Of a DNA stretch of 34,849 bases, positions 14,393-34,404 are shown piece after piece (position 1 is the stretch's first letter; the number at the start of each line of letters is the position of its first letter). The stretch comes from Oceanotoga teriensis (GTDB lineage: Bacteria; Thermotogota; Thermotogae; Petrotogales; Petrotogaceae): positions 1-34,849 of the forward strand of contig NZ_QGGI01000024.1 of the NCBI RefSeq assembly GCF_003148465.1, in the 5' to 3' direction. Position numbers and translations under genes: made by a program. The notes under the pieces were generated by a model, which searched no databases, was not told the DNA's origin, and was given only the letters and a program-made list of their open reading frames with translations.

Positions 14393-14483
14393 ATTATCTT
14401 TGTAGTAAGGTATAAAAATAGAATTTTATTAGAATAAAAAATATAATATATATTAGAAACAATATTAATTGGGAGGTAATGAT

Positions 14484-15482
14484 ATGAAAAAAGTTTTAAT
14501 TTTATTGGTATTAGTATTTACTATTATGAGTTTTTCTGCTACATTATTTGATGTTATAGAGTCTGCTAAAGCTACATCTACAACATATGAACTTTCAAAT
14601 TTGGAATATGTTTTGATGGAAATGGAATATGATAAGAATAAAATAATGGCAACAAATCAAAAGTCAGAGTTAAGTGCGGAAATAAATTTTTTAAATTCTT
14701 TAAAAGAAAATAAAAAAACTGTAGAAAGATTTTATACAGATACTATAAATACTTATTTTGATTACTTAATAGATAAACTCGACTATGAAAGTACTGAACT
14801 TAAAATCAAAAATGCAAGAATTGATTTAGAAAATAAGAAAAAATTATTCGAAAAAAAATTGATTTCTATTGATGAACTAAAAAATGCTGAATTAACTTTA
14901 AGTGATTTAGAAAATTCTATAACGAGTAAAAAAGTAAAAATGCTTGATTCAAAAAATGATTTAATAGAAATATATTCAAAAGAAATTTCTGAAATAAAGG
15001 TTAGTTTAATAGATTATGCCAATTATTTAGTTGATGATAAAGTTTATTTTGATAATAATTATGATTATAAAATATTAGAAAAGAATAAAGAATTAAATGA
15101 AGTTGAGATGAAGACATTACCTTCAAACTCATCAGAATTTGATATAAAAAATCTTGAATTAAAAAATAGAAAACTTGAAGTAAATATAAAAGACTCAGAG
15201 GATGCTTTGTATAAATCACATAGAGACTTAAAAAATCAATTAGAATCTTTTAAAATATCTATAAAAAATCTTGAAGAAAGAATAAATTTATCAAAAACAA
15301 CTTATGAAGATACAAATAATAAGTTTATAAATGGTTTAGCTTCAGAAGCTGAATTAAATAAATCTAAAGCTGATTATATCGATAGTTCAAAAACTTATTA
15401 TGAAACAATGAAGCAATATTTTAATTCTTTTGTTAAATATTTACTTGATACTGGAAGGAGACCTGAGGAGGTATTAAATTGA
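14484..15482 (+). CDS. TolC-like coiled-coil protein lacking recognisable barrel strands
   Basis: 332 residues with a signal sequence (KKVLILLVLVFTIMSFSA). The rest is almost entirely helical and shows the TolC internal duplication: KKLFEKKLISIDELKNAELTL in the first half and NNKFINGLASEAELNKSKADY in the second, the two helix-turn motifs of outer-membrane efflux proteins. The two LP-x-L-x-L stretches that normally form the membrane strands are missing and replaced by uninterrupted helix. ATG 14484 has GGAGG seven bases before it. It overlaps the next, strand-containing TolC homologue by four bases. I infer a helical subunit for a mixed TolC assembly; this is not a known arrangement to me. Confidence 0.65.
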   Translation: MKKVLILLVLVFTIMSFSATLFDVIESAKATSTTYELSNLEYVLMEMEYDKNKIMATNQKSELSAEINFLNSLKENKKTVERFYTDTINTYFDYLIDKLDYESTELKIKNARIDLENKKKLFEKKLISIDELKNAELTLSDLENSITSKKVKMLDSKNDLIEIYSKEISEIKVSLIDYANYLVDDKVYFDNNYDYKILEKNKELNEVEMKTLPSNSSEFDIKNLELKNRKLEVNIKDSEDALYKSHRDLKNQLESFKISIKNLEERINLSKTTYEDTNNKFINGLASEAELNKSKADYIDSSKTYYETMKQYFNSFVKYLLDTGRRPEEVLN

Positions 15483-16783
15483 GAAAGGTAATTTTAATAC
15501 TCTTTCTTTCTTTATTTTCAATAATTAGTTTCTCATCAGTTGAAGATATATTTAAGGAAGAATTGAACAAAAACATACAATTAAAAGAAAGTGAAAATAA
15601 TTTAAAAAATATAGAGATAAATATCAAAAAGAAAAATAATTTTTTTATTCCTTATATGTCTATAAAGTCAAGTCCTTTTGTCATGTTAAATAATCAAAAT
15701 TCTGATAGTATAAACTTCAATATATTAAATGTACAAAAGACTTTAAAAGATTATACTTATTCTACAAAGTTGTATTTGAATTTTACTGAATTATATGGTG
15801 CTCAACTTGGAATGACTTTACCATTTGGATATAATGAAGATGAAAATAAGTTTCAAATTGGTAATTTAGGTCTTTCTATTTCAAGGGATTTAAAAAAAGA
15901 ACCAGAAGTTGAAAAATTAAATTTAGAAGCTAATTATTATGATGCCATATATTCAATAAAAAAGACAAAAAACTCTATTTATATTAGTACAATAAATTCT
16001 ATAATAAATAAAAATAATAATGAAGAATTAATGAATCTTAATATGAAAAAACTTGAATTATTGGTAAAAAAATATGAATATTTAAAAGATGAAGATGAAA
16101 GAGAAAAAGTTGAATTAGACATTATAAAAACTAAAAAATCCATACAATCTTTAAAAGATAAACAAGAAAACTTCGATTATGATATAGATAAAAAAACTTA
16201 TGAAGAAGCATTAAATTTATTGAAAAAGTATGATGAAAAAATAAATATGAATTATATTCAAAGAGAAGATATAAAAGCTTTGAATAAAAGAGTAGAAGCA
16301 GCTAAAATACAAGAAACGTTTTGGTTTTTGCCATATTTGCCAGATATGTCTGTTGCATTTAATATAAATGATTTAGAGAATTTCAAATGGAGTTTGACAT
16401 TTGATTTAAACTTAAATGTACTTGATTTTGGCGAAAAAGAACAGCTTGCAAACACGAGAAAAAATAATTATAGTGATTTGAAAGTTAAAGAGAAAATTGA
16501 TTCAATAGAAAGAACCATAAAAAGTTATTTAAATGATATAAGAATTAATGAATTTGATAAAAAAATAAATGCATCTAATTTAAAACAGTCAAAAGAAAAT
16601 ATTTTAAAAAATAGAAAATTATTTGAAAATGGTTTTATGAGTGAACTCGATTATGATCTTTATGAAATAGATTATAGAATAAATGAAATAAACTTTGAAA
16701 GTTCAAATTTAACAGATAATTTTAACTATATGAATATAGCTTCTGAAAATGGTGAAGCATTATGGGGTGATTTAGTTGAGTAA
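15479..16783 (+). CDS. TolC-family outer-membrane efflux protein
   Basis: A signal sequence (VILILFLSLFSIISFSS) precedes ~415 residues of duplicated helix-strand-helix architecture. Candidate membrane strands follow FFIPYMSIKSSPF (~50-65) and continue through TKLYLNFTELYGAQLGMTLPF; the second pair is at FWFLPYLPDMSVAFNI and FKWSLTFDLNLNVLDFG, the typical TolC pattern. The late NRKLFENGFMSELDYDLYEID is the conserved helix-turn. It starts with TTG after GAGGAGG, overlapping the previous stop as TTGA. It should form the outer-membrane exit duct for the adaptor and ABC genes that follow. Confidence 0.8.
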   Translation: MRKVILILFLSLFSIISFSSVEDIFKEELNKNIQLKESENNLKNIEINIKKKNNFFIPYMSIKSSPFVMLNNQNSDSINFNILNVQKTLKDYTYSTKLYLNFTELYGAQLGMTLPFGYNEDENKFQIGNLGLSISRDLKKEPEVEKLNLEANYYDAIYSIKKTKNSIYISTINSIINKNNNEELMNLNMKKLELLVKKYEYLKDEDEREKVELDIIKTKKSIQSLKDKQENFDYDIDKKTYEEALNLLKKYDEKINMNYIQREDIKALNKRVEAAKIQETFWFLPYLPDMSVAFNINDLENFKWSLTFDLNLNVLDFGEKEQLANTRKNNYSDLKVKEKIDSIERTIKSYLNDIRINEFDKKINASNLKQSKENILKNRKLFENGFMSELDYDLYEIDYRINEINFESSNLTDNFNYMNIASENGEALWGDLVE

Positions 16784-17795
16784 AAAGAAAAGCAAAAAAT
16801 GGATCTGGATAATAATTATATTGATCATAATTATTGGAGGTTATGTTCTTATAAATAAATCAAAATCTGAAACAAATCCTGAAATAAATGCAAATATTCA
16901 AATACCAAATCTTGAATATAAAGTTCAAAAAAGAGACTTTGGAGATTATACGGAAATAGTTGGAAATGTAAATGCTGATACCAGAACTATATATCCACCA
17001 TTTAAAGAAAAGATAACAGATGTTTTTGTTGAAGAAGGCCAAAAAGTAGAAATAGGAGATCAGCTATTAAAGTTTGAAGATTTAACTTATAGAATAAATT
17101 ATATTTCAAAACAAATAGATTATGATAATTCATTGAACATGGCCGAAAAAATAAGAGAATTAAAAAAACTTCAACTCGAACAAGCAAAAGAAGAACTTGA
17201 AAAAACTACGCTTAAATCTCCTGTTAAAGGAACTATAGAAAAATTAGATATTGGTGTTGGAGATAATCCTCAATTGGATAAAGGTATGATGGTAATAGTT
17301 GATAATGAGTCTATGAGAGTAAAATCTTCAATAGATGAATTAGATTTGCCAAATATAAAACTTGGTATGAAAGCCATAATTGAATTTAATCAGCTTGGAG
17401 TATCTATACCTGGAGAGTTAACTCTTATAAATCCCGTTGCTGAAAGTTCTGGAGGCATAGTTTATATACCTGTAGAAATTAAATTTACAGAAGATCCATT
17501 GAAATATGGAATAATATCAGGATTAACTGCAAATGTAAAATTAGTAACTTTAGAACTTAAAAATTCAATAGCCATACCAAAAGAAGCTTTGAAAACAAGA
17601 GAAAATGGTACAAAATTTGTTTACATAAAAACTTCTGAAGGTAAAAAAGAAGTAGATGTAAAAAGTGGAAAAGAAACTAAAAAATATGTTGAGATTTTAG
17701 AAGGTCTTAAAGAAGGAGATATAGTTCTTTTGATACCAGATGGAGCTGAACTCCAAAGACTTCAAAATGTTAACGGTGTTCCGAGGGGATTCTGA
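16776..17795 (+). CDS. Periplasmic adaptor (membrane fusion) protein of a MacA type
   Basis: 339 residues: an N-terminal membrane anchor (WIWIIIILIIIIGGYVLI), a split biotinyl/lipoyl-like domain (ADTRTIYPPFKEKITDVFVEEGQKV ... LKSPVKGTIEKLDIGVGD, broken here by the hairpin), a short alpha hairpin (~110-140), a beta-barrel domain (~185-270) and a membrane-proximal domain. The hairpin is short for a MacA homologue. It starts at TTG overlapping the TolC gene by eight bases, and its stop overlaps the ATPase ATG by one. It should connect the inner-membrane MacB complex to the TolC duct. Confidence 0.88.
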   Translation: MSKKKSKKWIWIIIILIIIIGGYVLINKSKSETNPEINANIQIPNLEYKVQKRDFGDYTEIVGNVNADTRTIYPPFKEKITDVFVEEGQKVEIGDQLLKFEDLTYRINYISKQIDYDNSLNMAEKIRELKKLQLEQAKEELEKTTLKSPVKGTIEKLDIGVGDNPQLDKGMMVIVDNESMRVKSSIDELDLPNIKLGMKAIIEFNQLGVSIPGELTLINPVAESSGGIVYIPVEIKFTEDPLKYGIISGLTANVKLVTLELKNSIAIPKEALKTRENGTKFVYIKTSEGKKEVDVKSGKETKKYVEILEGLKEGDIVLLIPDGAELQRLQNVNGVPRGF

Positions 17796-18490
17796 TGAGC
17801 GTAATGAAACTTGAGGATGTTAAAAAAATTTATAAAATGGGGGAAATAGAAGTACATGCCCTCAGAGATATAAGTTTTGAAATAGAAGATGGAGATTATA
17901 TTGTCATCGTTGGGCCTTCAGGTAGTGGAAAATCTACACTTTTGCAAATTTTAGGATGTTTAGATAGACCTACCTTAGGAAATGTATACATAGAAAATTC
18001 TGAAGTATCTTCTATGCCAGATAAGAAATTGGCCGAAGTTAGGAATAAAAAAATAGGATTTATTTTTCAAAAATTCAATTTATTATCTCATTTAAGTGCT
18101 TTAGAAAATGTTGAATTACCAATGATATATGGAAATGTTCCAACAAAGGAAAGAAAAAAAAGAGCTAAAGAATATCTTGAACTTGTAGGACTAGGGGATA
18201 GAATGGATCATAAACCAACAGAGTTATCTGGTGGACAACAGCAGAGAGTTGCCATAGCGAGAGGTCTTGCGAATGAACCAGCTTTTTTATTGGCTGATGA
18301 ACCAACTGGAAATTTAGACAGTAAAAGTGGAAAAGAAATACTTCAAATATTTCAAAAATTAAATGATATGGGAAAAACTTTAGTTGTTGTAACCCATGAT
18401 CCTACAATGGAAAGTATAGGAAATAAAGTTGTGAGAATTCTTGATGGTGCCATAGAATCGATAGAGGTGAAAAAAAATGGAAATACTTAA
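17795..18490 (+). CDS. MacB/LolD-type ABC transporter ATPase
   Basis: 231 residues with Walker A GPSGSGKST, Q-loop FIFQKFNLL, signature LSGGQQQRVAIARGL, Walker B LLADEPTGNLD and switch His in VVVTHDPT. This is the MacB/LolD/FtsE class, which powers mechanotransmission and not substrate passage. The DEPTGNLDS and LGCLDRPT motifs are classic for it. GAGGGG precedes the ATG. The last 14 bases overlap the permease start, so the pair is coupled. Confidence 0.95.
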   Translation: MSVMKLEDVKKIYKMGEIEVHALRDISFEIEDGDYIVIVGPSGSGKSTLLQILGCLDRPTLGNVYIENSEVSSMPDKKLAEVRNKKIGFIFQKFNLLSHLSALENVELPMIYGNVPTKERKKRAKEYLELVGLGDRMDHKPTELSGGQQQRVAIARGLANEPAFLLADEPTGNLDSKSGKEILQIFQKLNDMGKTLVVVTHDPTMESIGNKVVRILDGAIESIEVKKNGNT

Positions 18491-19706
18491 AGAAACGATA
18501 AGATCTTTAAGATCTAATAAAATGAGAACTTTTCTATCGATGCTTGGAATAATAATTGGAGTAATGGCTGTTATTACAGTTGTGGCAGTTGGAGAAGGTG
18601 CAACAAATCAAATAAAGTCACAAATATCATCTCTTGGATCTAATATGATTTTTGTGCAAAGAGGATATTATGGTGGGCAAGGAGGAGCTGCGGTTAAAAT
18701 CGAGCGAAATCCATTTTCACTTGAAGATGCTGATAAAATAAATGAAATGGCTCCAAGTGTAAAAAATGCAGTGTCATTATTAGGATCTAGTTTTTTGGTT
18801 CAAGGTGGTAAAAATAATTCATATTTTACCGTTTATGGAGCATCAGAAATTTTTTTCGATTTATTAAGTGTAGATTTAATTTCTGGTAGGAATGTGAGTT
18901 ATGAAGACTATAAAAATGCTGAAAATAATGTAGTTGTTGGGTATAATATTGCCAGTAAATTGTTCCCAGGAGAAAATCCAATTGGAAAAACTATATACAT
19001 GATTCAACCTGGAAAAAATTTTACAAGAAAAGTAGCTTTTGAAATAATTGGATTGATGGAAAAATCTGGTAGTATAGGTTTTTTTGATGTTGATAATATG
19101 ATTTTAATGAATGATAAATTATCAGATGCAAGGCTTTTTCAATCAAATGGAAGAACTTCTATAATTGTGGCACAAGCAAAATCTGAAGAAACAGCTAAAC
19201 TTGCCATAAAAGAAATAGATCATTATATGTATGAAAAATTTGGAAATGATAAAACTTATGAAATCATGAGTCAAGATGCCATGCTCGAAACTGTAGGCCA
19301 AGTGACTAATATAATGAAATTTGTTTTAATATCAATAGCTGCAATTTCTTTGCTCGTTGGCGGTATAGGTATTATGAATATAATGCTTGTTTCTGTGACT
19401 GAAAGAACCAAAGAAATAGGTATTAAAATGGCTATAGGAGCTACCAGAAAAAGAATACTCAGTGAATTTCTTGTTGAAAGTGTTTTAATAACTTTTATAG
19501 CAGGAATAATAGGTGTTTTATTTGGTTGGGGACTTTCACAAATTATAACAATTTTTGGACAAGGAATAGGTCTTGTTGCTGAAATGACATTGGAAGCTAT
19601 TATAGTATCCTTTAGTGTTTCGGCTGGAGTGGGATTGTTTTTTGGAATATATCCTGCTAATAAGGCATCTAAGTTGAGTCCAATAGAAGCTTTAAGATAT
19701 GAATAA
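18477..19706 (+). CDS. MacB/FtsX-type ABC transporter permease
   Basis: 409 residues with the four-helix MacB layout: TM1 (~18-40, MRTFLSMLGIIIGVMAVITV), a large extracytoplasmic domain (~45-275, starting SSLGSNMIFVQRG) and three C-terminal helices (~280-395) bearing the FtsX signature ISLLVGGIGIMNIMLVSVTE and RTKEIGIKMAIGATRK. It carries no fused ATPase, unlike E. coli MacB. GAGGTGA lies before the ATG. With the upstream adaptor and TolC genes it forms a complete tripartite exporter, whose substrate (peptide, antibiotic or lipid) cannot be read from sequence. Confidence 0.95.
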   Translation: MEILKETIRSLRSNKMRTFLSMLGIIIGVMAVITVVAVGEGATNQIKSQISSLGSNMIFVQRGYYGGQGGAAVKIERNPFSLEDADKINEMAPSVKNAVSLLGSSFLVQGGKNNSYFTVYGASEIFFDLLSVDLISGRNVSYEDYKNAENNVVVGYNIASKLFPGENPIGKTIYMIQPGKNFTRKVAFEIIGLMEKSGSIGFFDVDNMILMNDKLSDARLFQSNGRTSIIVAQAKSEETAKLAIKEIDHYMYEKFGNDKTYEIMSQDAMLETVGQVTNIMKFVLISIAAISLLVGGIGIMNIMLVSVTERTKEIGIKMAIGATRKRILSEFLVESVLITFIAGIIGVLFGWGLSQIITIFGQGIGLVAEMTLEAIIVSFSVSAGVGLFFGIYPANKASKLSPIEALRYE

Positions 19707-23705: not shown

Positions 23706-24230
23706 ATGGCTAAAATAGCTTTAGATCCTATAGAAGAAAAGAGAGAAGAAACGCCTAAAAAAATAAAAATAAATAAAAAATTTTCTCCTGGATCTATAAT
23801 ATTAGAAATGTTTTTGGGAACTTTTAATATAATATTTTCTATAGCCATATTAAGTTTTTCAATAATTTTAAATCTATTAAAATCTACTATACATCAAATA
23901 ATAGGTTCTCAATTTACTTTAGATATGAGACCATTGATTTTTATAACTATACCCATATTCCTTTTTGGAGTCTTTTTACATTTTTATTCTATTGAAAGGA
24001 TAGCAAAAAGATATTATAAGTTATATGGTCTTTTAATTTTTTTTAATGGTATTTTTATGTCTGGAATTATATTATTTTACATATATAAAATGTCTATAAA
24101 TTGGTTTGGTGTAAGCATATTTGGAAACACTTCAATAGGTTTAAATCAATGGTTTTATCTGCCTTCAATTTTATATATAATATATTCTATTTTTACGATA
24201 TATTATTCTTTAATTCTCATGAGAAAATAA
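23706..24230 (+). CDS. Four-helix membrane protein of unknown function
   Basis: 174 residues with a charged cytoplasmic N-terminus (EEKREETPKKIKINKK), then about four hydrophobic helices (IILEMFLGTFNIIFSIAIL, PLIFITIPIFLFGVFLHFY, LYGLLIFFNGIFMSGIILF, YLPSILYIIYSIFTIYYSL). No motif suggests an activity. GGAGGAG precedes the ATG. It is the last gene of the prmA-uvrC operon, followed at once by a terminator. Confidence 0.65.
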   Translation: MAKIALDPIEEKREETPKKIKINKKFSPGSIILEMFLGTFNIIFSIAILSFSIILNLLKSTIHQIIGSQFTLDMRPLIFITIPIFLFGVFLHFYSIERIAKRYYKLYGLLIFFNGIFMSGIILFYIYKMSINWFGVSIFGNTSIGLNQWFYLPSILYIIYSIFTIYYSLILMRK

Positions 24231-24257
24231 AATGGAGAGTATTAATACTCTCCATTT
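24230..24257. terminator. Bidirectional terminator between convergent operons
   Basis: A perfect 14-bp-arm palindrome (core GGAGAGTATT/AATACTCTCC) separates the uvrC operon from the opp operon. The minus side continues into TTTTATTTTC, a better U tract than the plus side. The OppF stop codon lies inside it. Confidence 0.8.
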
Positions 24258-25294
24258 AAAACTTTTTCTTCTTCATTATTTTTAATTATTTCTTCTATTC
24301 TTCTACATGCAGCGAAATGACCTTCATTAAATTCTTTTATTTCTGGTTCTTCCAAAGCCCAACATTCTTCCTTTGCGTATGGGCATCTTGGATGAAATCT
24401 ACATCCTTTTGGAATATTTGCTGCAGAAGGTATTTCACCTTTTATAGGGACTTTTTTTACTTTATTTACTTTTCCTGCAATTGGTTCGCATACAGCAGAT
24501 ATCAAAGCTTTTGTATATGGATGAAGTGAATTATCTATAACATCATCTGGTGTTCCCATTTCTACTATTTTACCAAGATACATAACAGCTATTCTATCTG
24601 TAAAATATCTTGCAGTTGATAAATCATGAGTTATGTATAAATATGTCAAATTTAACTCTTTCTGCACTTGTTTTAACATATGAAGGATTTCAGCCCTAGT
24701 TGATAGATCTATCATTGAAACTGGTTCATCTGCGACTAATAGTTTTGGAGATAGCATTAAAGCTCTGGCCGTTGAAGCTCTTTGCCTCTGACCACCAGAA
24801 AGCATATGCGGATATCTACCCATAAACTCTTCTGGGGGCATTAATCTAACTTTTTCCAATCCATTTTTTATTAGAATTTCTCTTTTTAATCTATCTTCTT
24901 CAATTTTATGAATTATCAAAGGTTCTTCCATAACATCTTTCACTTTAAATCTTGGATTCATAGATGCATAAGGATCTTGAAATATCATTTGTACTTCTGT
25001 TCTATATTTTTTTAATCTATCTTTAGATATATGAGTCACATCTTCATCATTGAATATTAATTGACCATCTGTAGGTTCATGAAGTTGCATGACCATTTTT
25101 GCTGTTGTAGTTTTACCACAACCAGATTCACCTATTAGACCGAATATTTCCCCTTTTTTAATACTGAAAGAAACCCCATCTACCGCTTTAACATATCTTT
25201 GCTGACCTGAAAAAAATTCTTTCATAGTTCTTTTTATTGGAAACCATTTTTTTAAATTTTTTATTTCAACTAAATTTTCAGTTTTCATCTGCAT
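24242..25294 (-). CDS. Oligopeptide-type ABC importer ATPase, OppF-like
   Basis: About 350 residues with Walker [11 protein letters not shown]-loop [13 protein letters not shown], signature [15 protein letters not shown], Walker [13 protein letters not shown] and H-loop YITHDLS. The C-terminal oligopeptide extension has the Cys cluster [15 protein letters not shown], typical of Opp/Dpp ATPases. DEPVS in place of DEPTS is a minor variant. The start is ATG 25294 or 25288; GGAGG lies four or ten bases upstream respectively, and the gene overlaps oppD's end. Last gene of the operon. Confidence 0.92.
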
Positions 25295-26270
25295 CACACC
25301 TCCAACATGCTACCTTATGTTCAGCTTCTATTTCTTTTAAAATAGGTTCTTCTGTTTTACATTTTTCAAAAGCATAAGGACAACGAGGATGAAATCTACA
25401 GCCTTTTGGAGGATTTAAAAGATTAGGAGGTGTTCCTTTAATAAAAGCTAATTCTTTTACATTTTCATGTAATTTAGGAGTTGCCGCTAATAGCCTTTCA
25501 GTATAAGGATGAGCAGGTCCCTGTTCACCATATATTTGTTGATTTGTACCTATTTCTACTATTTTTCCAGCATACATAACAGCGATTCTATCTGAAACTT
25601 CTGCTTCTGTAGCCAAATCATGAGTTATAAATATGAATGAAAGATTCAATTTTTCTTTTAAATCTTTCAAAAGATTTATTATTTGAGCTTGAACTACAAC
25701 ATCAAGAGCTGTTGTAGGTTCATCACATATGACTAATGAAGGTTCTAAAAAAAGTGCTGAAGCTATAGCAATTCTTTGTTTCATACCACCTGATAATTCA
25801 TGAGGATATCTTTTTAAAATATCTTCTGATAATCCAACATAGTTTAAATATTTTATCATAGTTTTTTTAGCCTCTGATTTACTCATAGGCTTATGCAATT
25901 GAAGAGTTTCCATCAATTGTTTTTCTATAGTGAAAACAGGTGTTAAAGAGTTCATAGCACCTTGAAATACCATAGAAACTTTTTCCCATCTTATATTTTT
26001 CCTCAATTCTCTTTCTGTTAATGGAACTATATCTTTACCATCTATTAATATTTGACCTCCAACGATTTCACCAGGAGGTGAAGGCATTTTTAATATTGAA
26101 AAACCTGTTGTGGTTTTACCACAACCAGATTCACCAACAAGACCTAAAGTTTCTCCCTTTTTTAATTTAAATGATATGTCATCAACTGCTTTTACATCAC
26201 CATTTTCGGTTTTATAATACATTTTAAGATTTTTAACTTCTAAAGCAATATCATTATTCAAAATAATCAC
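25278..26270 (-). CDS. Oligopeptide-type ABC importer ATPase, OppD-like
   Basis: 330 residues: Walker [11 protein letters not shown]-loop MVFQGAMNSLTPV (Gly replaces the usual Asp-Pro), signature LSGGMKQRIAIASAL, Walker B LVICDEPTTALD, H-loop FITHDLA and the Cys cluster [14 protein letters not shown]. It pairs with the OppF-like ATPase to drive uptake. Start GTG 26270 is four bases after the OppC stop with a weak AAGG site; TTG 26261 is an alternative. The closing residues CWRCDADEN overlap the next gene. Confidence 0.92.
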   Translation of the reverse strand: MIILNNDIALEVKNLKMYYKTENGDVKAVDDISFKLKKGETLGLVGESGCGKTTTGFSILKMPSPPGEIVGGQILIDGKDIVPLTERELRKNIRWEKVSMVFQGAMNSLTPVFTIEKQLMETLQLHKPMSKSEAKKTMIKYLNYVGLSEDILKRYPHELSGGMKQRIAIASALFLEPSLVICDEPTTALDVVVQAQIINLLKDLKEKLNLSFIFITHDLATEAEVSDRIAVMYAGKIVEIGTNQQIYGEQGPAHPYTERLLAATPKLHENVKELAFIKGTPPNLLNPPKGCRFHPRCPYAFEKCKTEEPILKEIEAEHKVACWRCDADEN

Positions 26271-26274
26271 AACC

Positions 26275-27675
26275 TTATCTTGTTTTTAGTTTAGGCATTA
26301 ATATTTTATCCATAGAAAAGCCAATAAATGCGAATGTCATTCCAACCACAGATATCATTAACCCAGGAGGAATAATCCACCACCAAATACCTTGAACCAT
26401 TGCTCCACCAGTTCTTGCATCTTGAAGGATTTGACCCCAAGTTACAATAGAGGCATCGCCAAGTCCTAAAACACTCATACCTGCTTCAGTAAGTATTGCT
26501 GCAGGTACAGATAAAGCCATGTTTGCAAAAGAATAAGGTACTAATAAAGGGATCATATGTTTAAAAATTATTCTTGAATTACTTGCACCTAAAGCTTTTG
26601 ATGCTTCTATATAAGTTTCTTCTTTTATTTGAAGACCCATACTTCTAACGGTTCTTACAGAACCAGTCCAATTTAATAAACACATCAAAATTATTAAAGT
26701 CCATATACTTGGTTTAAATATTGCAGATATGACTATTAATATTGGGATAAATGGAATATTTAAGAAAAATTCTAAAATTCTTTGCATAAAAGAGTCTACC
26801 CAACCACCATAATAAGCACTGGTTATACCATAACTAACACCTACTGTTACTGAAATAGCAGCTGTTAAAAGACCTATTAATAAAGCCCATTTTATTCCCG
26901 CAAGAACGCCACTCCAAAGGTCTCTTTTAAAATTATCGGTACCAAGTACACCAGAAACTTTTCCATTTATTTTAGCTAAAGGATTAGAGATCTCTCCTTC
27001 TCCTTTGGTAAAAATAGCTTGAACTGTTATTTTATAATCTCCTTTTAAAAATTCTGGAGATGATATAATATTTTCTTTTGCTTGTGAAAATATTATATTT
27101 AAAGGGTTTATAGTGCTCTTTAACACACTTGATGAGTTTTCATAATCTATTTTATTTGCAAATTTATATGCACCATCTTTAGCATCTGTACCAAGAGAAA
27201 TTCTTACATCAGATTTATTGCTCAGGTTTAAAGATTTTTTTGATAAAATTATTTTTTCTCCATCTGGGCGTATCAAATTAATACTTATAATTGGAGAACC
27301 AATTGCATCAAAATGTATTATAAAATCTTCTGGTGCAGTCGCAAAATCAAAGTTATAATCAAAATCAAAATTATATATTTTTAAAGCACCTTTAGAAATT
27401 TCTTCAAAGTTAGAGTTTTCTAATATTTGTGTTTCAGGCAATTTTTCTTTTCTAAACCAATTAGTCCAAACAGGTGCTGCACTTTTTGGATTGTCTTCCC
27501 AATAAGTTATATCTCTCCATCTGTTGGTTGCTTCTGGATAAGGAGAAATAATTGGTTCAAATATAGTTATTAGTATTAAGATTATCAATAGTACTAAACC
27601 AACCATACCAGATTTAATTTTTCTGAATTCAGTCCAAAATTCATTAAATGCATATGAAAAATCTTTCCATTTCAA
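26275..27675 (-). CDS. OppC/DppC-like permease with a large extracytoplasmic insertion
   Basis: About 466 residues; usual OppC/DppC is ~300. The first helix (MVGLVLLIILILITIFEPII) is followed by ~185 extra residues before the normal VLGTDNFKRDLWSGVLAGIK junction. The insertion starts with YPEATNRWRDITYWEDNPKS and includes strand-rich stretches (IISINLIRPDGEKIIL, DYKITVQAIFTKGEGE) suggesting a beta-sandwich outside the membrane. The remaining helices and the EAA loop (EASKALGASNSRIIFKHMIP) are standard. TTG 27675 has AGGTGG five bases before it and lies one base after the OppB stop; GTG 27684 overlaps that site. The insertion may contact the binding protein. Confidence 0.88.
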   Translation of the reverse strand: MKWKDFSYAFNEFWTEFRKIKSGMVGLVLLIILILITIFEPIISPYPEATNRWRDITYWEDNPKSAAPVWTNWFRKEKLPETQILENSNFEEISKGALKIYNFDFDYNFDFATAPEDFIIHFDAIGSPIISINLIRPDGEKIILSKKSLNLSNKSDVRISLGTDAKDGAYKFANKIDYENSSSVLKSTINPLNIIFSQAKENIISSPEFLKGDYKITVQAIFTKGEGEISNPLAKINGKVSGVLGTDNFKRDLWSGVLAGIKWALLIGLLTAAISVTVGVSYGITSAYYGGWVDSFMQRILEFFLNIPFIPILIVISAIFKPSIWTLIILMCLLNWTGSVRTVRSMGLQIKEETYIEASKALGASNSRIIFKHMIPLLVPYSFANMALSVPAAILTEAGMSVLGLGDASIVTWGQILQDARTGGAMVQGIWWWIIPPGLMISVVGMTFAFIGFSMDKILMPKLKTR

Positions 27676-27676
27676 A

Positions 27677-28717
27677 TCAACCACCTACTTTTATTCTAGG
27701 ATCAAGGAATCCATATATGAGATCGAGAATAACCAAGCCAATGATATAAATACCCGTAGTAAAAGCAAGATTTCCCATTAATACAGGAATATCATTTTGT
27801 TGATTTGCTATCAGGTAAAGGTTTCCCATTCCTGGCCAACTAAAGATTCCTTCAAAGATTAAAGAACCCCCAAAAGATGCAAGAATAGATAAAACTACCA
27901 TGGTTATTATAGGTGGTGCAGCTGTTCTCATAGTATGTCTGTATAGAACACTATTTTCACCTATACCTCTTGCTCTTGCAGCCATTATATAATCTTCTTG
28001 AAGTGTTCCTAAAACTATATTTCTAACAATAAAAGATACTCCCCAAAATCCCACTATTACATAAGTTATAACTGGTAAAGCGAGATGATGAAGATAATCT
28101 AAAAATAGTCCAAAAGATGTTTCAGGAGGAGGTACTCTGTGCATACCGCCACTTGGAAATATTTTTAAGCCATAACTAAATAACATTATAAACATCATTC
28201 CAACCCACCATTTTGGCATACCAAAAACTATCATTGTTATGACAGAAGTTGTTCTATCAAATTTGCCGCTTGGTTTTTGAGCTTTTTTCAGACCTATGAG
28301 CAAAGCTATTATAAGTATTATTACTTGAGATAGAGTGAATAATACAATAGTTCGAGGTAGAGCTTCAAGAACGATCTTTGTAACATCCTTTTCGCCAGAG
28401 CTCGAAGTTATATTTGTAGCCTGACCAAAATCAAATCTTATAGTTTTCCAAGTATTATTAAAAACTCTTTCAATATAACTTTTATCTAGACCATAAAGCT
28501 TTATATAATATTCTTTCCTGTTCTTAACAAAAGAAGAGGCATCAAATTTAGGGTTATTTTCTGATAATGATTTTACTTCCATTCTTATTTGTTCATTAAT
28601 GGTACCCATAGTTGTTTCTTCCATTACTTTGTTGAACAGGGCAGAGTATGTAAACATAAGAATTATAAACATTATTATACCGGCTATAATTCTTTTTATT
28701 ACATATTTCCAATACAT
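27677..28717 (-). CDS. OppB/DppB-like permease
   Basis: 346 residues: N-terminal helix (IIAGIIMFIILMFTYSALF), a periplasmic segment (~30-110), then five helices with the EAA-type loop ARARGIGENSVLYRHTMRTA and the closing GLVILDLIYGFLDPRIKVGG, both typical of OppB/DppB. AGGAG precedes the ATG. It is the first permease gene after the binding-protein gene and is separated from it by a hairpin that may lower permease expression. Confidence 0.93.
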   Translation of the reverse strand: MYWKYVIKRIIAGIIMFIILMFTYSALFNKVMEETTMGTINEQIRMEVKSLSENNPKFDASSFVKNRKEYYIKLYGLDKSYIERVFNNTWKTIRFDFGQATNITSSSGEKDVTKIVLEALPRTIVLFTLSQVIILIIALLIGLKKAQKPSGKFDRTTSVITMIVFGMPKWWVGMMFIMLFSYGLKIFPSGGMHRVPPPETSFGLFLDYLHHLALPVITYVIVGFWGVSFIVRNIVLGTLQEDYIMAARARGIGENSVLYRHTMRTAAPPIITMVVLSILASFGGSLIFEGIFSWPGMGNLYLIANQQNDIPVLMGNLAFTTGIYIIGLVILDLIYGFLDPRIKVGG

Positions 28718-28739: not shown

Positions 28740-28762
28740 AAGGGGAGATAAAATCCCCCCTT
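28740..28762 (-). terminator. Hairpin between binding-protein and permease genes (probable attenuator)
   Basis: A 9-bp stem with one G:U (minus strand AAGGGGGGA-TTTTA-TCTCCCCTT) is followed by TTTT only. It is GC-rich for this genome and sits just after the binding-protein stop. It probably stabilises that mRNA end or partly terminates, giving more binding protein than permease. Confidence 0.6.
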
Positions 28763-28772
28763 AAGATTGTTT

Positions 28773-31259
28773 TTAATAAATAACTAAAGATCCTGTTTTT
28801 GTATCAACAAATAATCCATCAAGAGTTGCAGTTACAACATATATATAGCTACCTGAATCTAATTTTTCAGTAGCTGTTGATGGAATTAATCCCATAAATT
28901 CTCCAGGACCATAGTTCATAGCATCAAATTCTACTTCGCCTTCAGGAGTTACAAGTATTATTTTTACTTCTGCTTCATTTGCTAAAGCTGTTTCATCATT
29001 AGGGAAACTAACTTTAGAAACATTGATTTCAAATTCGGCATCTTCACCAGACATTGCTATATCAGGAGCAGTTAAACTATCTATTCTTGCTCTATCTTTC
29101 TTATAAATTTTTTCCCAATGTCCTTTTTCGAATGGATATGAAGCATCTCTGTATGCTGATAGTTCAACATAATTTGAATCTGTATCTATTTTTGTCAACA
29201 TGAATGGACCATACCCTATGAAAGCATGATTATATTTATCTATAAAATCTATAGCCATTTTATAATCTTTTATAGCTTCATCAGCAGTTATTAAACCATT
29301 CAATTCTTCAGGTATATATTTTCTATCTATCATTTGATTTAATTTAGCTCTTATATCCTTAACACATTTAGGAGTTTTTACATCTACTTCTTCAACGCCT
29401 TCTTCTTGATTGAAACCCCATTTAGTACCAGATTGACTATCATTTTCAATAACTAATAATGCCAATGCTTCTGCAATTTCCCAAGCAACACCTACTCCAG
29501 GATTTCTTGAACTTATTCTTAAAGAAGGAGCGTATCCTCCAGCCATATCTAATTTATTCATAGGGAAATTATAGTTTCCATATGTTCTTATAGTATTATC
29601 ATCTAATATTTCCCATGCAACATATACACTATCTATTGAATCTTTAAATTGCATTTCCATATGAGGATGATATTTTTTATCCTGATCATTAGCTTTAGTT
29701 GACCAATCAAATATAAAAGAATTAGCATAAATATAATCTCTTACATCCATCATTCTTCCATGATGCCATTTAAAGTAACTTAAATCCCAAGTAGCTTCAA
29801 ATACTGATTTAACACCATTTCCAACTGGAACATATTTTTTCTGATTTATATCATATATTTCTGCATCAGCTGGAACATTTATATTTCCTTTTATATTTCC
29901 TTCAGCATCTTTATAAGGTGCCGATTTGAAATCTTTAAGAGTTGCAACTCTTTCAACGGTAACTCCAAATGGAGTATCGATCATACTTCTTTCGAACATA
30001 ACTGTTGAAACATTACTTGAATAAGTATCTCCAAATCCATTATATCCTATTGGATCCCATGCATTCATAAAAAGATTACCTGCTGCAGAGAATTGAATTA
30101 TTTTTAAGATATTATCTTTAACTTTTGCATTTTCAAGACTCCATCTGTTCAAACCATCACCGAGTCCATAAGGCATTCTTTCAATAAATCTATCTTTGTT
30201 TGCAACATAAAAATCATTTTGATAAGTTATAAAAAGTCTTATTGAGTCATGAATTCCCAATTCTGTTGCTTTTGTTATTTTTTCCCAATATTCTTCTTCT
30301 GTTAAGAAATTACCATTCATAAAATCTGAAGCTAATTTATCTATTTCTGGTTGTTCATAGTTCCACCATGTGTCGAGTCCCCAACCTGGCATATTAGTTC
30401 CACGTGGTGCGAGATGTTGATTTACAGGAGTTCTCCACCAAACATATGTTGAACCAGCACCCCAACCTTCAGTATACATTTGCCATATGTAGTCAGCTGG
30501 ATCTGTGTTATAAACAGTATTAGAAGCTTTAGATCTATCCCATAAAAGTCTTTCAACTTTTATGCCTGCTTCTTCAACTAAATCAGAAACATAATTTCCC
30601 AGTTTAAGTCTACCTTCTGGGTCATCTACTCTTATTATGAATTTTATTGTAACTGGTTCATTGTTGAAATACCAGAAACCATCTTTTTTAACCAATTTAC
30701 CTTTGTTTTCTGGTATTTGTGAAGCTTTTTGCATGGCTGCTTCTATATCAGCTAAAGCTTTTTCTTTATCTCCTTCAGGAGTGATACCCATCTTTTGTGC
30801 TACCAAATCAACTTTCCAAGCATTTGGTTGACCTGGTGTTGCAGGTGTAAAAGAAGGTCCACCAGATCCGCCTTGTATTTCTTCAACAATATATTTTCTA
30901 TCAATTAAAAAGTTCATTGCAAATCTTATTTCTCTTATTGCAAAAGGATTAAAATATGTCTTTCCTTGAACTTCTACTTGATAAGGTGCGGCATTAGGTA
31001 TTGGGTTTAAAATCAAATCCCAACTTCCAGAAGGTACTGAATAAACATCGAGTTTATCTCTTGTAGCTTTATCTAACCCTTTAAACATTGATCCTGGAAC
31101 ACTATTCATGAAAAGGTCAAAAATACCTTCTGAAATATCTTTTACGGCGATATCTTGAGACATTCTCGCTCCAAAGTAAATTTTGTCAGGTTGTGGCCCT
31201 TTCACAGCGAATGATAAGACCATAACTAAGATAAATAAAAACAATAAAAACTTTCTCAT
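28773..31259 (-). CDS. Large, apparently circularly permuted SBP_bac_5-type binding protein
   Basis: 828 residues with a signal sequence (FLLFLFILVMVLSFAVK); usual OppA/DppA is 530-600. Motifs normally late come first: PDKIYFGARMSQDIAVKD (~25), SEGIFDLF, and FNPFAIREIRFAMNFLIDRK (~103-122). Motifs normally early come later: WDPIGYNGFGDTY (~401), KWHHGRMMDVRDYIYA (~497, like the WHDG-pLTAeDV block), GYGPFML (~682) and YRDASYPF (~703). Residues ~728-828 look like an Ig-type beta domain. GGGGGG precedes the ATG. It heads the operon and delivers substrate to OppBC. The ligand may be peptide or oligosaccharide, since Thermotogota use this family for both. The permutation is inferred from motif order. 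Confidence 0.88.
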   Translation of the reverse strand: MRKFLLFLFILVMVLSFAVKGPQPDKIYFGARMSQDIAVKDISEGIFDLFMNSVPGSMFKGLDKATRDKLDVYSVPSGSWDLILNPIPNAAPYQVEVQGKTYFNPFAIREIRFAMNFLIDRKYIVEEIQGGSGGPSFTPATPGQPNAWKVDLVAQKMGITPEGDKEKALADIEAAMQKASQIPENKGKLVKKDGFWYFNNEPVTIKFIIRVDDPEGRLKLGNYVSDLVEEAGIKVERLLWDRSKASNTVYNTDPADYIWQMYTEGWGAGSTYVWWRTPVNQHLAPRGTNMPGWGLDTWWNYEQPEIDKLASDFMNGNFLTEEEYWEKITKATELGIHDSIRLFITYQNDFYVANKDRFIERMPYGLGDGLNRWSLENAKVKDNILKIIQFSAAGNLFMNAWDPIGYNGFGDTYSSNVSTVMFERSMIDTPFGVTVERVATLKDFKSAPYKDAEGNIKGNINVPADAEIYDINQKKYVPVGNGVKSVFEATWDLSYFKWHHGRMMDVRDYIYANSFIFDWSTKANDQDKKYHPHMEMQFKDSIDSVYVAWEILDDNTIRTYGNYNFPMNKLDMAGGYAPSLRISSRNPGVGVAWEIAEALALLVIENDSQSGTKWGFNQEEGVEEVDVKTPKCVKDIRAKLNQMIDRKYIPEELNGLITADEAIKDYKMAIDFIDKYNHAFIGYGPFMLTKIDTDSNYVELSAYRDASYPFEKGHWEKIYKKDRARIDSLTAPDIAMSGEDAEFEINVSKVSFPNDETALANEAEVKIILVTPEGEVEFDAMNYGPGEFMGLIPSTATEKLDSGSYIYVVTATLDGLFVDTKTGSLVIY

Positions 31260-31478
31260 CCTATTCCCCCCTTTGAGTGATGTGAAAAAAGGTTAATTTT
31301 TCATTACATATGATAACAAAAAAATAAACTATAAATATATGACTAAAGTCATGTTTATTGAAATAATTTGTAATTTTTTAACTTTAAATTAATTATTTTT
31401 ATATTTTGTTTACAGATAATTATTTTATCATAATAAAATTAATTTTGAAATATTAATTTTTCAAACAGAAATTAAACG
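31260..31478. promoter_or_regulatory. Divergent intergenic region, binding-protein side
   Basis: No gene was found here. It holds two candidate operators for the binding-protein operon: TGAAAAA-N7-TTTTTCA (31283-31303) and ATGAC-TAAA-GTCAT (31339-31352). A Thermotogota-specific motif cannot be named from one copy. I could not find a convincing -35/-10 pair on the minus strand. Confidence 0.3.
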
Positions 31479-31615: not shown

Positions 31616-31635
31616 GTTATATAATGGAGGTCTAT

Positions 31636-32817
31636 ATGAATAAAAAAATATTTTTTTATGGAATCACTATAAGATTGTCTATATATGCAGCTTTAATATT
31701 TAGTTTAATAGAAGAGTATCATTATTTTCCAAATGATTTAATAAAATATTTGATAATAGTTGGATTTATATTTGTCAATGATATTTTTAGATATATGATT
31801 AAATCAAGAAGAGTATTTTTTATAATATCTTTTATATTTTCTATAATCATATCTGTATTTCTCACGGCTTATGTTAGTAATGATTTTTTGATATATTTCT
31901 TCTTTTTAACTTATGAATTTATAATAGATGAAAGTGGTATTTATTCTTTCTTGATAGGTATTTTTCATTTTTTATCTTTTACATATATATGGCTTGTAAA
32001 TAGTGGTATGAATTTAATAAAAGATAAAAATATATTTGAATTGATCATTTATAATAGTACGGATTTTTTTACAAATATATTCATATATTTTGTAATAGTC
32101 GCAATTTTATTTTTAATAAAGAGATTAATAAATGAAAGAAATAAGGTCATGAAATTAAATGAAAAGCTAAAAAATTCTTTAGAAGAAATAGAAATTTTAA
32201 CTATACAAAATGAAAGAAACAGACTTGCACAAGAAATACATGATTCAATAGGACATTCTATAGCTGGATTAATAATGCATTTAGATTATTTAGAAAAAAT
32301 ATATAAAAATAATAGTAAAGAAGTTGAAAGTATAATAGAAAAATCTCAAAATCTTGCAAGAAATTCTATGAAGGATTTAAGAAAGGCTGTAAATACTTTA
32401 AAGGAAGATTTAAATATAAATAACTTACAAGAAAGTATAGAAAATTTGATAGAAAATGTGAGTACTAAAGAAAAAGTAATAGAGTATATTTTTGATGGGA
32501 ATATAGAAAATATGAATCAAAATATTAAATATACTGTTTTTAGAATATCACAGGAATTGATAACTAATTCTTTGAAGCATTCAAAAGGAAATAAAATATA
32601 TTTATATATAAAAAATGATGGTGATTTTATTGAAATAAAAGAATCTGATAACGGATTTTTTAATGGAATATTTGAAAAAGGAAATGGATTGAAGGGTATA
32701 GAAAAAAGAGTTAAAAGTGTTAATGGTGAAGTAATTTATGATTATGAAAAAAATTTTTCTATTTTAATAAAGATACCTCTGGAGGGTGTATATAATGATA
32801 AAAGTTATGATTGTTGA
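31636..32817 (+). CDS. NarL-class sensor histidine kinase (LiaS/DesK-like)
   Basis: 393 residues. The N-terminal ~165 contain five or six membrane helices with almost no extracytoplasmic domain, as in intramembrane-sensing kinases. A coiled linker (~165-190) leads to a HisKA_3 box with phospho-acceptor His202 (RLAQEIHDSIGHSIAGL). The ATPase has the N box ELITNSLKHSKG and a glycine box GNGLKGIEKRV. GGAGG (31626-31630) is five bases before ATG 31636; the ATG at 31624 overlaps that site. It overlaps the response regulator, and a DUF4097 gene follows, recalling Lia-type envelope-stress systems. Confidence 0.9.
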   Translation: MNKKIFFYGITIRLSIYAALIFSLIEEYHYFPNDLIKYLIIVGFIFVNDIFRYMIKSRRVFFIISFIFSIIISVFLTAYVSNDFLIYFFFLTYEFIIDESGIYSFLIGIFHFLSFTYIWLVNSGMNLIKDKNIFELIIYNSTDFFTNIFIYFVIVAILFLIKRLINERNKVMKLNEKLKNSLEEIEILTIQNERNRLAQEIHDSIGHSIAGLIMHLDYLEKIYKNNSKEVESIIEKSQNLARNSMKDLRKAVNTLKEDLNINNLQESIENLIENVSTKEKVIEYIFDGNIENMNQNIKYTVFRISQELITNSLKHSKGNKIYLYIKNDGDFIEIKESDNGFFNGIFEKGNGLKGIEKRVKSVNGEVIYDYEKNFSILIKIPLEGVYNDKSYDC

Positions 32818-33454
32818 TGATCAACCTTTGATAAGAGATGGTATAAAAATGATATTATCCTTGAATGAAGATATAGAAGTGATGGCAGAAGCTGAAAATG
32901 GAAATGAAGCTATTCAAAAATTAAATGAATTGAATATAGATGTCATATTGATGGATGTAAGAATGCCTGTTTTAAATGGAGTTGAAGCTACTAAAATTAT
33001 AAAAAAGAATTTTAAAAATATAAAAGTTATAATTTTAACAACTTTTAAAGATGATGAATATTTATTTGAAGCTTTAAAAAATGGGGCTGATGGATATATT
33101 TTAAAAGATGTTAAATCTGATGAAATAATAGAAGCTATAAAAACAGTTTATTCAGGAAATCTATTAATCCAATCGGAAATGGCGAGTAAAATGGTTAAAT
33201 TTTTTAATAACTCTCAAAATAGCATAAAAGAAAAAGAAGAAATTAAAATAAAAGGGCCATATGAAAATTTGACTCAAAGAGAAATAGAAATTGCGATACT
33301 GATTTCAGAAGGTAATTCAAATAAAGAAATATCTGAAAAATTGTTTATAACAGAAGGAACGGTAAAAAATCATTTAACAAGAATATTGTCAAAACTTCAA
33401 TTAAGAGATAGAACTCAACTTGCTTTATATATAAATAAGACATTAGAAAGTTAA
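32795..33454 (+). CDS. NarL/LuxR-family response regulator (LiaR-like)
   Basis: 219 residues. The receiver domain has acidic pair Asp8-Asp9, phospho-acceptor Asp54 (LMDVRMPVLNG), the Thr switch (ILTTFKDDEY) and Lys in YILKDV. The C-terminal LuxR helix-turn-helix (LTQREIEIAILISEGNSNKE, then ITEGTVKNHLTRIL) binds DNA. GGAGGG is eight bases before ATG 32795, which overlaps the kinase end by 23 bases. It is the cognate partner of that kinase, and the dyad upstream of the operon is a candidate site. Confidence 0.95.
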   Translation: MIKVMIVDDQPLIRDGIKMILSLNEDIEVMAEAENGNEAIQKLNELNIDVILMDVRMPVLNGVEATKIIKKNFKNIKVIILTTFKDDEYLFEALKNGADGYILKDVKSDEIIEAIKTVYSGNLLIQSEMASKMVKFFNNSQNSIKEKEEIKIKGPYENLTQREIEIAILISEGNSNKEISEKLFITEGTVKNHLTRILSKLQLRDRTQLALYINKTLES

Positions 33455-33459
33455 GATAT

Positions 33460-34404
33460 ATGAAAAAAATTTGTACATTTATATTTATAATTTTTAGCCT
33501 TATTCTTTTTTCTAAAGAATATAATTTAATAGAAGTTTATGATATACCGCTTTTTAACTATAAAAATTTAAAAGCGGATTTAAATTTTGTTGATATAAAT
33601 TTATATTATTCTATGAAAAATAATATAAAAATGACTTTGAAAAATAATGAAAGATTATTTCCAGATATTTCTTTTAAACCGTATTTAAATACATTTAATA
33701 TAAACGAAAATCTTTTTGATAATTCTAAAACTTTTTCATTATTTAAAAAGTTACTTATAAATAATGAACATCTGATAAGTAGTTGGAATGGCAGTGGTAG
33801 AATAACAATTTATACTACAGCTAAGTTTGATAATGTTATCTTTTCGAATTATTCTGGAAATATAAATATAAAAGATATAAATGTCAAAGAAAATTGTGTT
33901 TTGAAAAGTGTTAATGGAAATATATCATTAAAAAATTTAAATGTACATGATTTAGATATAAATAATATTCAAGGGAATATAGAATCACAAAATATCATGT
34001 CATCTGGAAGTATAAACATGAATTCAAAATCATCCAATATAATTTTGAAAAACGGAATATATTTTGAAAATTATTTTAATATACTTACTCAAGAGTCTGA
34101 TATTTATATAGAAAATTTATATGGTGAATATACAGATATAAGATCTAAAAAATTAAAACTTGTAATTATGAGTGAAAAAATAAAAAAAATAGATATAGAA
34201 TCTGATTTTGGTGATATAAAAATATTTGTTAAAGATAAAAATTTTTCTATAAATTTAGAAACTCAAGATGGTGATATATCATATTTTGGAGAAAAACATG
34301 ATAAAACTTTAAAAAAACAAAAAAATAATACAAATAATTTTTTAAATATAAAGATTAAGTCTGGAAATATATATATAGAGGATATATCGAATATAAAAGA
34401 ATAA
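33460..34404 (+). CDS. Secreted DUF4097-like beta-helix protein
   Basis: 314 residues with a signal sequence (KKICTFIFIIFSLILFSKEY). From ~115 on it shows repeated strand units with the DUF4097 feel: NVIFSNYSGNINIKDINV, CVLKSVNGNISLKNLNV, INNIQGNIESQNI, NMNSKSSNIILKNG, IDIESDFGDIKIFV, LETQDGDISYFG, IKIKSGNIYIEDI. It should fold as a right-handed beta-helix outside the inner membrane. DUF4097 modules occur in LiaG/LiaF-type partners of Lia systems. It starts five bases after the regulator stop with no clear ribosome site, so it may depend on coupling. Confidence 0.7.
   Translation: MKKICTFIFIIFSLILFSKEYNLIEVYDIPLFNYKNLKADLNFVDINLYYSMKNNIKMTLKNNERLFPDISFKPYLNTFNINENLFDNSKTFSLFKKLLINNEHLISSWNGSGRITIYTTAKFDNVIFSNYSGNINIKDINVKENCVLKSVNGNISLKNLNVHDLDINNIQGNIESQNIMSSGSINMNSKSSNIILKNGIYFENYFNILTQESDIYIENLYGEYTDIRSKKLKLVIMSEKIKKIDIESDFGDIKIFVKDKNFSINLETQDGDISYFGEKHDKTLKKQKNNTNNFLNIKIKSGNIYIEDISNIKE

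Follow-up and report, generated by a model that had tools for sequence, protein, structure and literature searches.

A natural circular permutant of the class II oligopeptide-binding protein fold in Oceanotoga teriensis and the four circular orders of its family

Circular permutation is usually regarded as exceptional, something that happened once between two proteins. Among the binding proteins of ABC transporters, a natural circular permutant has been described in TpMglB-2 (Tp0684) of Treponema pallidum, a glucose-binding protein of cluster B that was termed "Type Ic / Cluster Bc", keeps its ligand binding, and is related to proteins of treponemes and Gram-positive bacteria (PMC4990184). Another circular-permutation family, which was found by structure at less than 24% identity, unites CysB with the proteins that bind glycine betaine and molybdate (PMC2395249). 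Permutation by duplication is exemplified by saposin/swaposin and DNA methyltransferases, for which more than one order of a fold, or duplicated intermediates, occur in nature (PMC3320104). For the protein described here, a relative of the same family has been solved, namely OppA of Thermococcus kodakaraensis (7fi3), whose ligand is an endogenous pentapeptide according to the PDB title. More broadly, the class II (cluster C) proteins of PF00496, such as OppA, DppA, and NikA of E. coli and TM1223, share with it the fold of both halves and the linkage to OppB, OppC, OppD, and OppF. In a literature search confined to open-licence papers, which is weak evidence of absence, no report was found of permuted Opp/SBP_bac_5 proteins or of repeated re-permutation within one binding-protein family. 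Permutation of binding proteins is already known in other clusters, and the notable new aspect of the present family is its repeated re-permutation.

The window analyzed in this study, a stretch of 34,849 nucleotides of O. teriensis (contig NZ_QGGI01000024.1), carries on its minus strand an intact open reading frame with an ATG start (28773..31259), encoding the substrate-binding protein of 828 aa. A strong Shine-Dalgarno-like sequence, AAAGGGGGGA (31265..31274, minus strand), was read directly from the DNA immediately 5' of this ATG. Residues 1–18 (MRKFLLFLFILVMVLSFA; 31206..31259, minus strand) form a putative signal peptide, for which the structural model gives a helix at residues 2–15 and which contains no lipobox Cys. 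Full-length relatives were present in 39 of the 61 related genomes searched, a count that includes weak partial matches, and many genomes of the same class encode full-length homologues with 40–49% identity.

The initial annotation had read this gene as a circularly permuted class II oligopeptide-binding protein on the basis of motif positions, and the motifs indeed lie where it placed them (FNPFAIREIRFAMNFLIDRK at residues 103–122, WHHGRMMDVRDYIYA near 498, and GYGPFML near 682). This reading was borne out by phmmer, by profile comparisons, and by the predicted structure. In the Pfam search, the protein matched PF00496 with 42.2 bits, passing the SBP_bac_5 cut-off of 32.4, and the match was split into two stretches, the better of which aligned residues 103–270 with profile positions 210–350 of 368. 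When the sequence was rotated at residue 378, a single continuous stretch covered profile positions 100–350 with 47.8 bits, a modest gain that was not relied on. The HMM and profile alignments of the native chain were non-collinear, and the normal N-to-C order of the SBP_bac_5 profile was recovered only after rotation. A phmmer search against the PDB gave 7fi3_A as the sole match (E 4.7e-69, about 30% identity), in which residues 33–285, 319–377, and 381–704 of the window protein corresponded to residues 331–585, 663–720, and 3–304, respectively.

For profile–profile comparison, 44 non-redundant relatives were aligned against ten ordinary SBP_bac_5 proteins, of which eight came from the genome of the window itself and the rest from related genomes. 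The block equivalent to the normally C-terminal half (C-block) matched columns 257–548 of the ordinary proteins with an E value of 1.6e-23, and the N-block matched columns 67–144 (E 6e-5) and 225–268 (E 0.001). Pfam returned no match for the N-block alone, nor for the tail of residues 721–828 alone; given this result and the weak similarity to ordinary proteins (the former E value), the identity of the N-block rests on 7fi3 and the structure. No NCBIfam equivalog was assigned to the binding protein, whose score against Opp5A_nikA was 11.2 bits, compared with a cut-off of 600. Furthermore, Pfam and Foldseek placed the protein with SBP_bac_5/Opp, not with the sugar-binding fold of cluster B (type I). 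TpMglB-2, with its cluster B (type I, glucose/galactose) fold, a different cut site, and one reported circular order, belongs to another branch of the superfamily, and the members of the glycine betaine/molybdate/CysB family are much smaller class II proteins outside the peptide/Opp family, among which serial re-permutation was not shown. The window protein is accordingly a member of SBP_bac_5 by homology and fold, with a permuted topology, and chance was excluded as the source of the permuted pattern.

An AlphaFold model of the whole protein, built with 34 aligned family members, had a pLDDT of 90.8 and a pTM of 0.87. In this model, the equivalent of the C-terminal half (residues 19–382; 30114..31205, minus strand), which was delimited by structure alignment and by the C-block profile match, was superposed with VIA-align on residues 335–754 of 7fi3 (Z 31.7, rmsd 2.5 over 356 residues) and, with Z about 20–22, on the corresponding halves of many OppA/DppA/NikA chains. 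Residues 379–828 were predicted separately with a pLDDT of 90.3, and the equivalent of the N-terminal half within them (residues 379–719; 29103..30125, minus strand) was superposed on residues 34–346 of 7fi3 (Z 32.7, rmsd 2.2 over 306 residues). A fold unlike class II was not seen: the predicted models have the class II binding-protein fold, as judged from 7fi3 for both halves and from OppA/DppA/NikA for the first half. Foldseek with the whole model matched the first half alone, as a collinear aligner would give.

The former C- and N-termini are directly fused at residues 377–384 (30108..30131, minus strand), where the phmmer blocks stop at 377 and resume at 381. The new ends fall in the loop that joins the 'NPxYW' segment of normal proteins to their 'VDxI' segment, at about residue 213 of 1b52. 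A cut at the hinge crossing was also considered and was ruled out, because the structural ranges place the cut earlier, in that loop. In addition, the 12 residues 335–346 of 7fi3 were matched at both the start and the end of the permuted core, which may represent a small terminal redundancy of the kind left by duplication and subsequent trimming. Beyond the core, residues 721–828 (28776..29099, minus strand) were modeled as all-beta and resembled several Ig-like and filamin domains with Z up to 10.6; the beta domain that had been noticed at the end of the protein is thus predicted to be an added Ig-like/filamin-like beta sandwich. Both blocks are homologous to the halves of the parent fold, their positions are swapped, the old ends are fused, and the new ends lie elsewhere, so that the protein is a full circular permutation of the class II (cluster C, SBP_bac_5) fold with an added Ig-like domain. 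It differs from 7fi3, whose halves stand in the normal order and which lacks an Ig-like tail, and from ordinary class II proteins in the reversed halves, a core of about 730 instead of about 500 residues, the tail, and the partner OppC, which possesses an extra domain.

Directly 3' of the binding-protein gene, and likewise on the minus strand, stand oppB-, oppC-, oppD-, and oppF-type genes (28717 to 24242). The first encodes an OppB-type permease of 346 aa (27677..28717, minus strand; PF00528 8.3e-32, Opp2B 4.2e-50) and the second an OppC-type permease of 469 aa (26275..27684, minus strand; PF00528 and OppC_N, Opp4C 3.1e-60). The length of the latter is due to an extracytoplasmic insert of about 190 aa (residues ~51–240; 26965..27534, minus strand) that separates the first membrane helix from the permease core, as OppC_N covers residues 14–54 and the permease domain begins at 282. 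Two ATPases of the OppD type (25278..26270, minus strand) and the OppF type (24242..25297, minus strand), each with ABC_tran and oligo_HPY domains, complete the operon. A terminator-like hairpin lies between the binding-protein gene and oppB (28743..28760, minus strand), and a hairpin terminator at 24230–24257 overlaps the end of oppF, the last gene; terminator-like hairpins occurred at 7 sites in the region, compared with 2.6 expected. The window gene thus combines an export signal, as read from its sequence, with linkage to an Opp/Dpp-type importer.

The operon together with the OppC insert was found again in nearly all family loci that reach oppC, bacterial and archaeal alike, and also in a normal-order Thermococcus locus (L039; OppC of 473 aa, insert match E 1e-15). 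The permuted protein thus belongs to a distinct and old transporter subfamily. The OppC insert, conserved alongside the permuted family in both domains of life, is a candidate docking partner. In five loci (L071, L072, L084, L087, and L112), the OppC partners were 641–811 aa long compared with the usual ~470. Meanwhile, the stored flanks of ten Brachyspira loci with permuted binding proteins (L088, L094, L096, L099–L104, and L109) gave no oppB/oppC match. Elsewhere in the window, on the plus strand, genes for an outer-membrane efflux protein, an HlyD-type fusion protein, an ABC ATPase, and a MacB/FtsX permease constitute a MacAB-TolC-like export cluster (14469–19706), which is preceded by FtsH (12276–14162), and a NarL-type two-component pair followed by a DUF4097 protein (31624–34404, plus strand) is divergent from the opp operon.

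The distribution of the family was examined by scanning 84,980 genomes with a query alignment without bias to circular order, which yielded 80 loci in Thermotogota, Atribacterota, Bacillota, Spirochaetota, one genome labelled Deltaproteobacteria, Nitrososphaerota, Thermoproteota, and other archaea. Denoting the normally first half as N and the normally second half as C, the order of the window protein, C then N (type A), was observed at every locus but two, both in Thermococcus, and type A was thereby shown to be the prevailing form of this family in both domains. These proteins, of about 820–870 aa, were full-length with identical boundaries in several dozen independent genomes, some of them assembled as single-contig chromosomes. 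Such recurrence leaves next to no room for explaining the permutation by faulty assembly or by a chance pattern of HMM matches; draft genomes may hold mis-joined tandem genes, but the further orders described below also recur across many genomes at the same cut sites. Two loci, L035 and L036, represent a second, very divergent subfamily, found in the same taxonomic class, that keeps the permuted order and a beta tail, with L035 at about 24% identity.

In the Thermococcales and Archaeoglobi, several orders coexist. Besides type A and the N-then-C order of 7fi3 (type N), type B begins with the final ~75 columns of N, continues with C, and ends with what is left of N, and in type C the final ~75 columns of C are followed by N and by the remaining C; the set comprised 29 type A, 21 type N, 21 type B, and 8 type C genes. 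When mapped on the window model, the cut sites were the chain ends for A, residues 377–384 for N, a position near 646–658 for B, and one near 298–318 for C. Moreover, a single reading frame of 2077 aa (L187 in G127) was found to read C-N-C-N, i.e., two whole permuted copies in tandem (type D), with an Ig-like stretch after each copy and a long C-terminal region at the end of the whole frame, and a second, partial tandem double copy was found in L211 (G158). In the Thermococcales, the ring has therefore been cut at no fewer than three further sites beside A, namely N, B, and C, and also occurs as the tandem double copy D. The count of four cut sites is robust. L187 may also be viewed as a double-headed binding protein.

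Signal peptides and C-terminal anchors were near-identical around differently cut cores, for example in L181 (type B) and L195 (type C), and B and C genes showed up to 78% identity over 626 columns. Among L181, L195, L215, L208, L039, and L060, signal peptides of the form MKKALGLFIMGLMLFS.. and anchors of the form ..TTTYVVVGLVIIIIAGAAWYFTKKK or GGGICGPA..PLLLRRRK were common to different circular orders. Very long or unusual C-terminal regions were seen in L188 (1448 aa), L212 (1447 aa), L196 (1221 aa), L185 (1048 aa), and L193/L203/L204 (about 955 aa), and in the L193-type proteins a terminal domain of unknown kind (..SDIPLPGSSQGDTSGFSAGDDITIVAMG) replaces the usual membrane anchor.

A tree of 86 proteins, all rotated to a common order, was constructed. 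Type A formed the background of this tree, and the normal-order proteins formed one clade (100) beside the type A protein of Geoglobus (95). The window protein fell within a bacterial clade of 31 rows (SH-aLRT 100) that comprises Thermotogota, Bacillota, and Spirochaetota, all of the same order and apart from the archaeal proteins. Long homologues do exist in hyperthermophilic archaea, as the initial annotation had stated when it considered lateral transfer; archaeal homologues share the order of the window protein, and gene exchange between archaea and Thermotogota is known. A recent lateral transfer from a hyperthermophilic archaeon to the bacterium of the window is nevertheless very improbable given the clade placement and the identities, as the best relatives are bacterial proteins about 50% identical and the archaeal 7fi3 is near 30%. 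An ancient exchange between the domains is possible.

The normal order found in the Thermococcales could in principle be ancestral and retained, type A having been made once from N. Ordinary cluster C proteins have the normal order, so the most distant ancestor had it as well, and this reading saves one event. However, the normal-order clade (100/100) is nested among type A proteins of Thermococcales and Archaeoglobi, and stands beside the one of Geoglobus (support 91/87 to 95). When the tree was rooted on ordinary SBPs with the C-block columns only, this clade remained nested and the root fell near the thaumarchaeal and other type A proteins, a placement that involves distant outgroups on long branches. 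Holding the normal-order clade with the outgroup, i.e., with normal order at the root, was rejected (AU p 0.025), although the rejection is modest, being based on about 380 columns and distant outgroups. Taken together, the phylogeny argues that the Thermococcales probably regained the normal order from type A, and we regard its retention from the ancestor as a doubtful, though conceivable, reading.

In the Thermococcales tree, evaluated by bootstrap and SH-aLRT, eight changes of order were needed, and the B, C, and D proteins together with some A proteins formed one mixed clade (100/100). In sliding windows, however, the best similarity switched between B and C partners. Such patchy similarity points to gene conversion, by which the tree-based count of seven to eight order changes may be inflated; seven or eight independent changes were thus demoted to an upper reading. 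With this reservation, it appears likely that an ancient permutation, now found in bacteria and archaea, was followed in the Thermococcales by a return to the original order and by at least two more cut sites, with the signal peptide, the anchor, and the permease being kept.

As for the route, the permutations probably proceeded via in-frame tandem duplication of the core and subsequent loss of opposite ends, with the signal peptide and C-terminal anchor retained. The tandem frames of L187 and L211 have the form of the intermediate expected for permutation by duplication, and traces of duplication are seen both in them, as a late Thermococcales branch and not as the ancestor of type A, and in the 12-residue overlap of the core ends. 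Alternatively, a new order could have arisen without tandem duplication, the gene splitting into two halves that then fused the other way round. This is a known route to circular permutants (PMC3320104), and the good separate prediction of the N-block plus tail (pLDDT 90.3) is consistent with it. Among the loci read, no free-standing half genes were seen, the half matches being contig-end cuts or ordinary SBPs, whereas double-copy frames do exist and the overlap at the two core ends fits duplication. Fission and fusion is thus the weaker rival of duplication, and we consider it unlikely. The several orders and tandem copies are reminiscent of saposin/swaposin and the DNA methyltransferases; here, one ring appears in four orders at orthologous positions of the operon, and two of these orders share as much as the 78% identity given above.

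All these observations are very probably best explained if the protein is exported and serves an OppBCDF-type ABC importer as its substrate-binding subunit, its chain being a naturally permuted version of the class II (cluster C) fold. After export, the two lobes would close on an oligomeric substrate, most likely peptides by analogy with 7fi3. The loaded binding protein would then dock on OppB/OppC and pass the substrate over, with OppD/OppF providing ATP hydrolysis. Chain order need not affect such docking, as the folded surface would be unchanged. Members of each order, A, N, B, and C, were found adjoining oppB, and this shared linkage supports that view.

Annotation by collinear HMMs mislabels or half-detects such proteins in many genomes, including those of abundant marine Thaumarchaeota and of host-associated Brachyspira and Treponema. 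With a solved structure, a conserved operon, many sequenced members, four orders, and a tandem intermediate, this one family makes it testable whether functional double copies serve as the route, whether reversion occurs, and which loops tolerate ends in a two-lobed protein of 700 residues, as well as whether docking on the membrane permease depends on where the anchored end sits relative to the lobes. As one ring is cut at four places in orthologous operons, the interest of the finding exceeds the single gene of the window: if true, nature would already have explored systematically, by re-permutation, at which positions a large two-lobed protein tolerates new chain ends.
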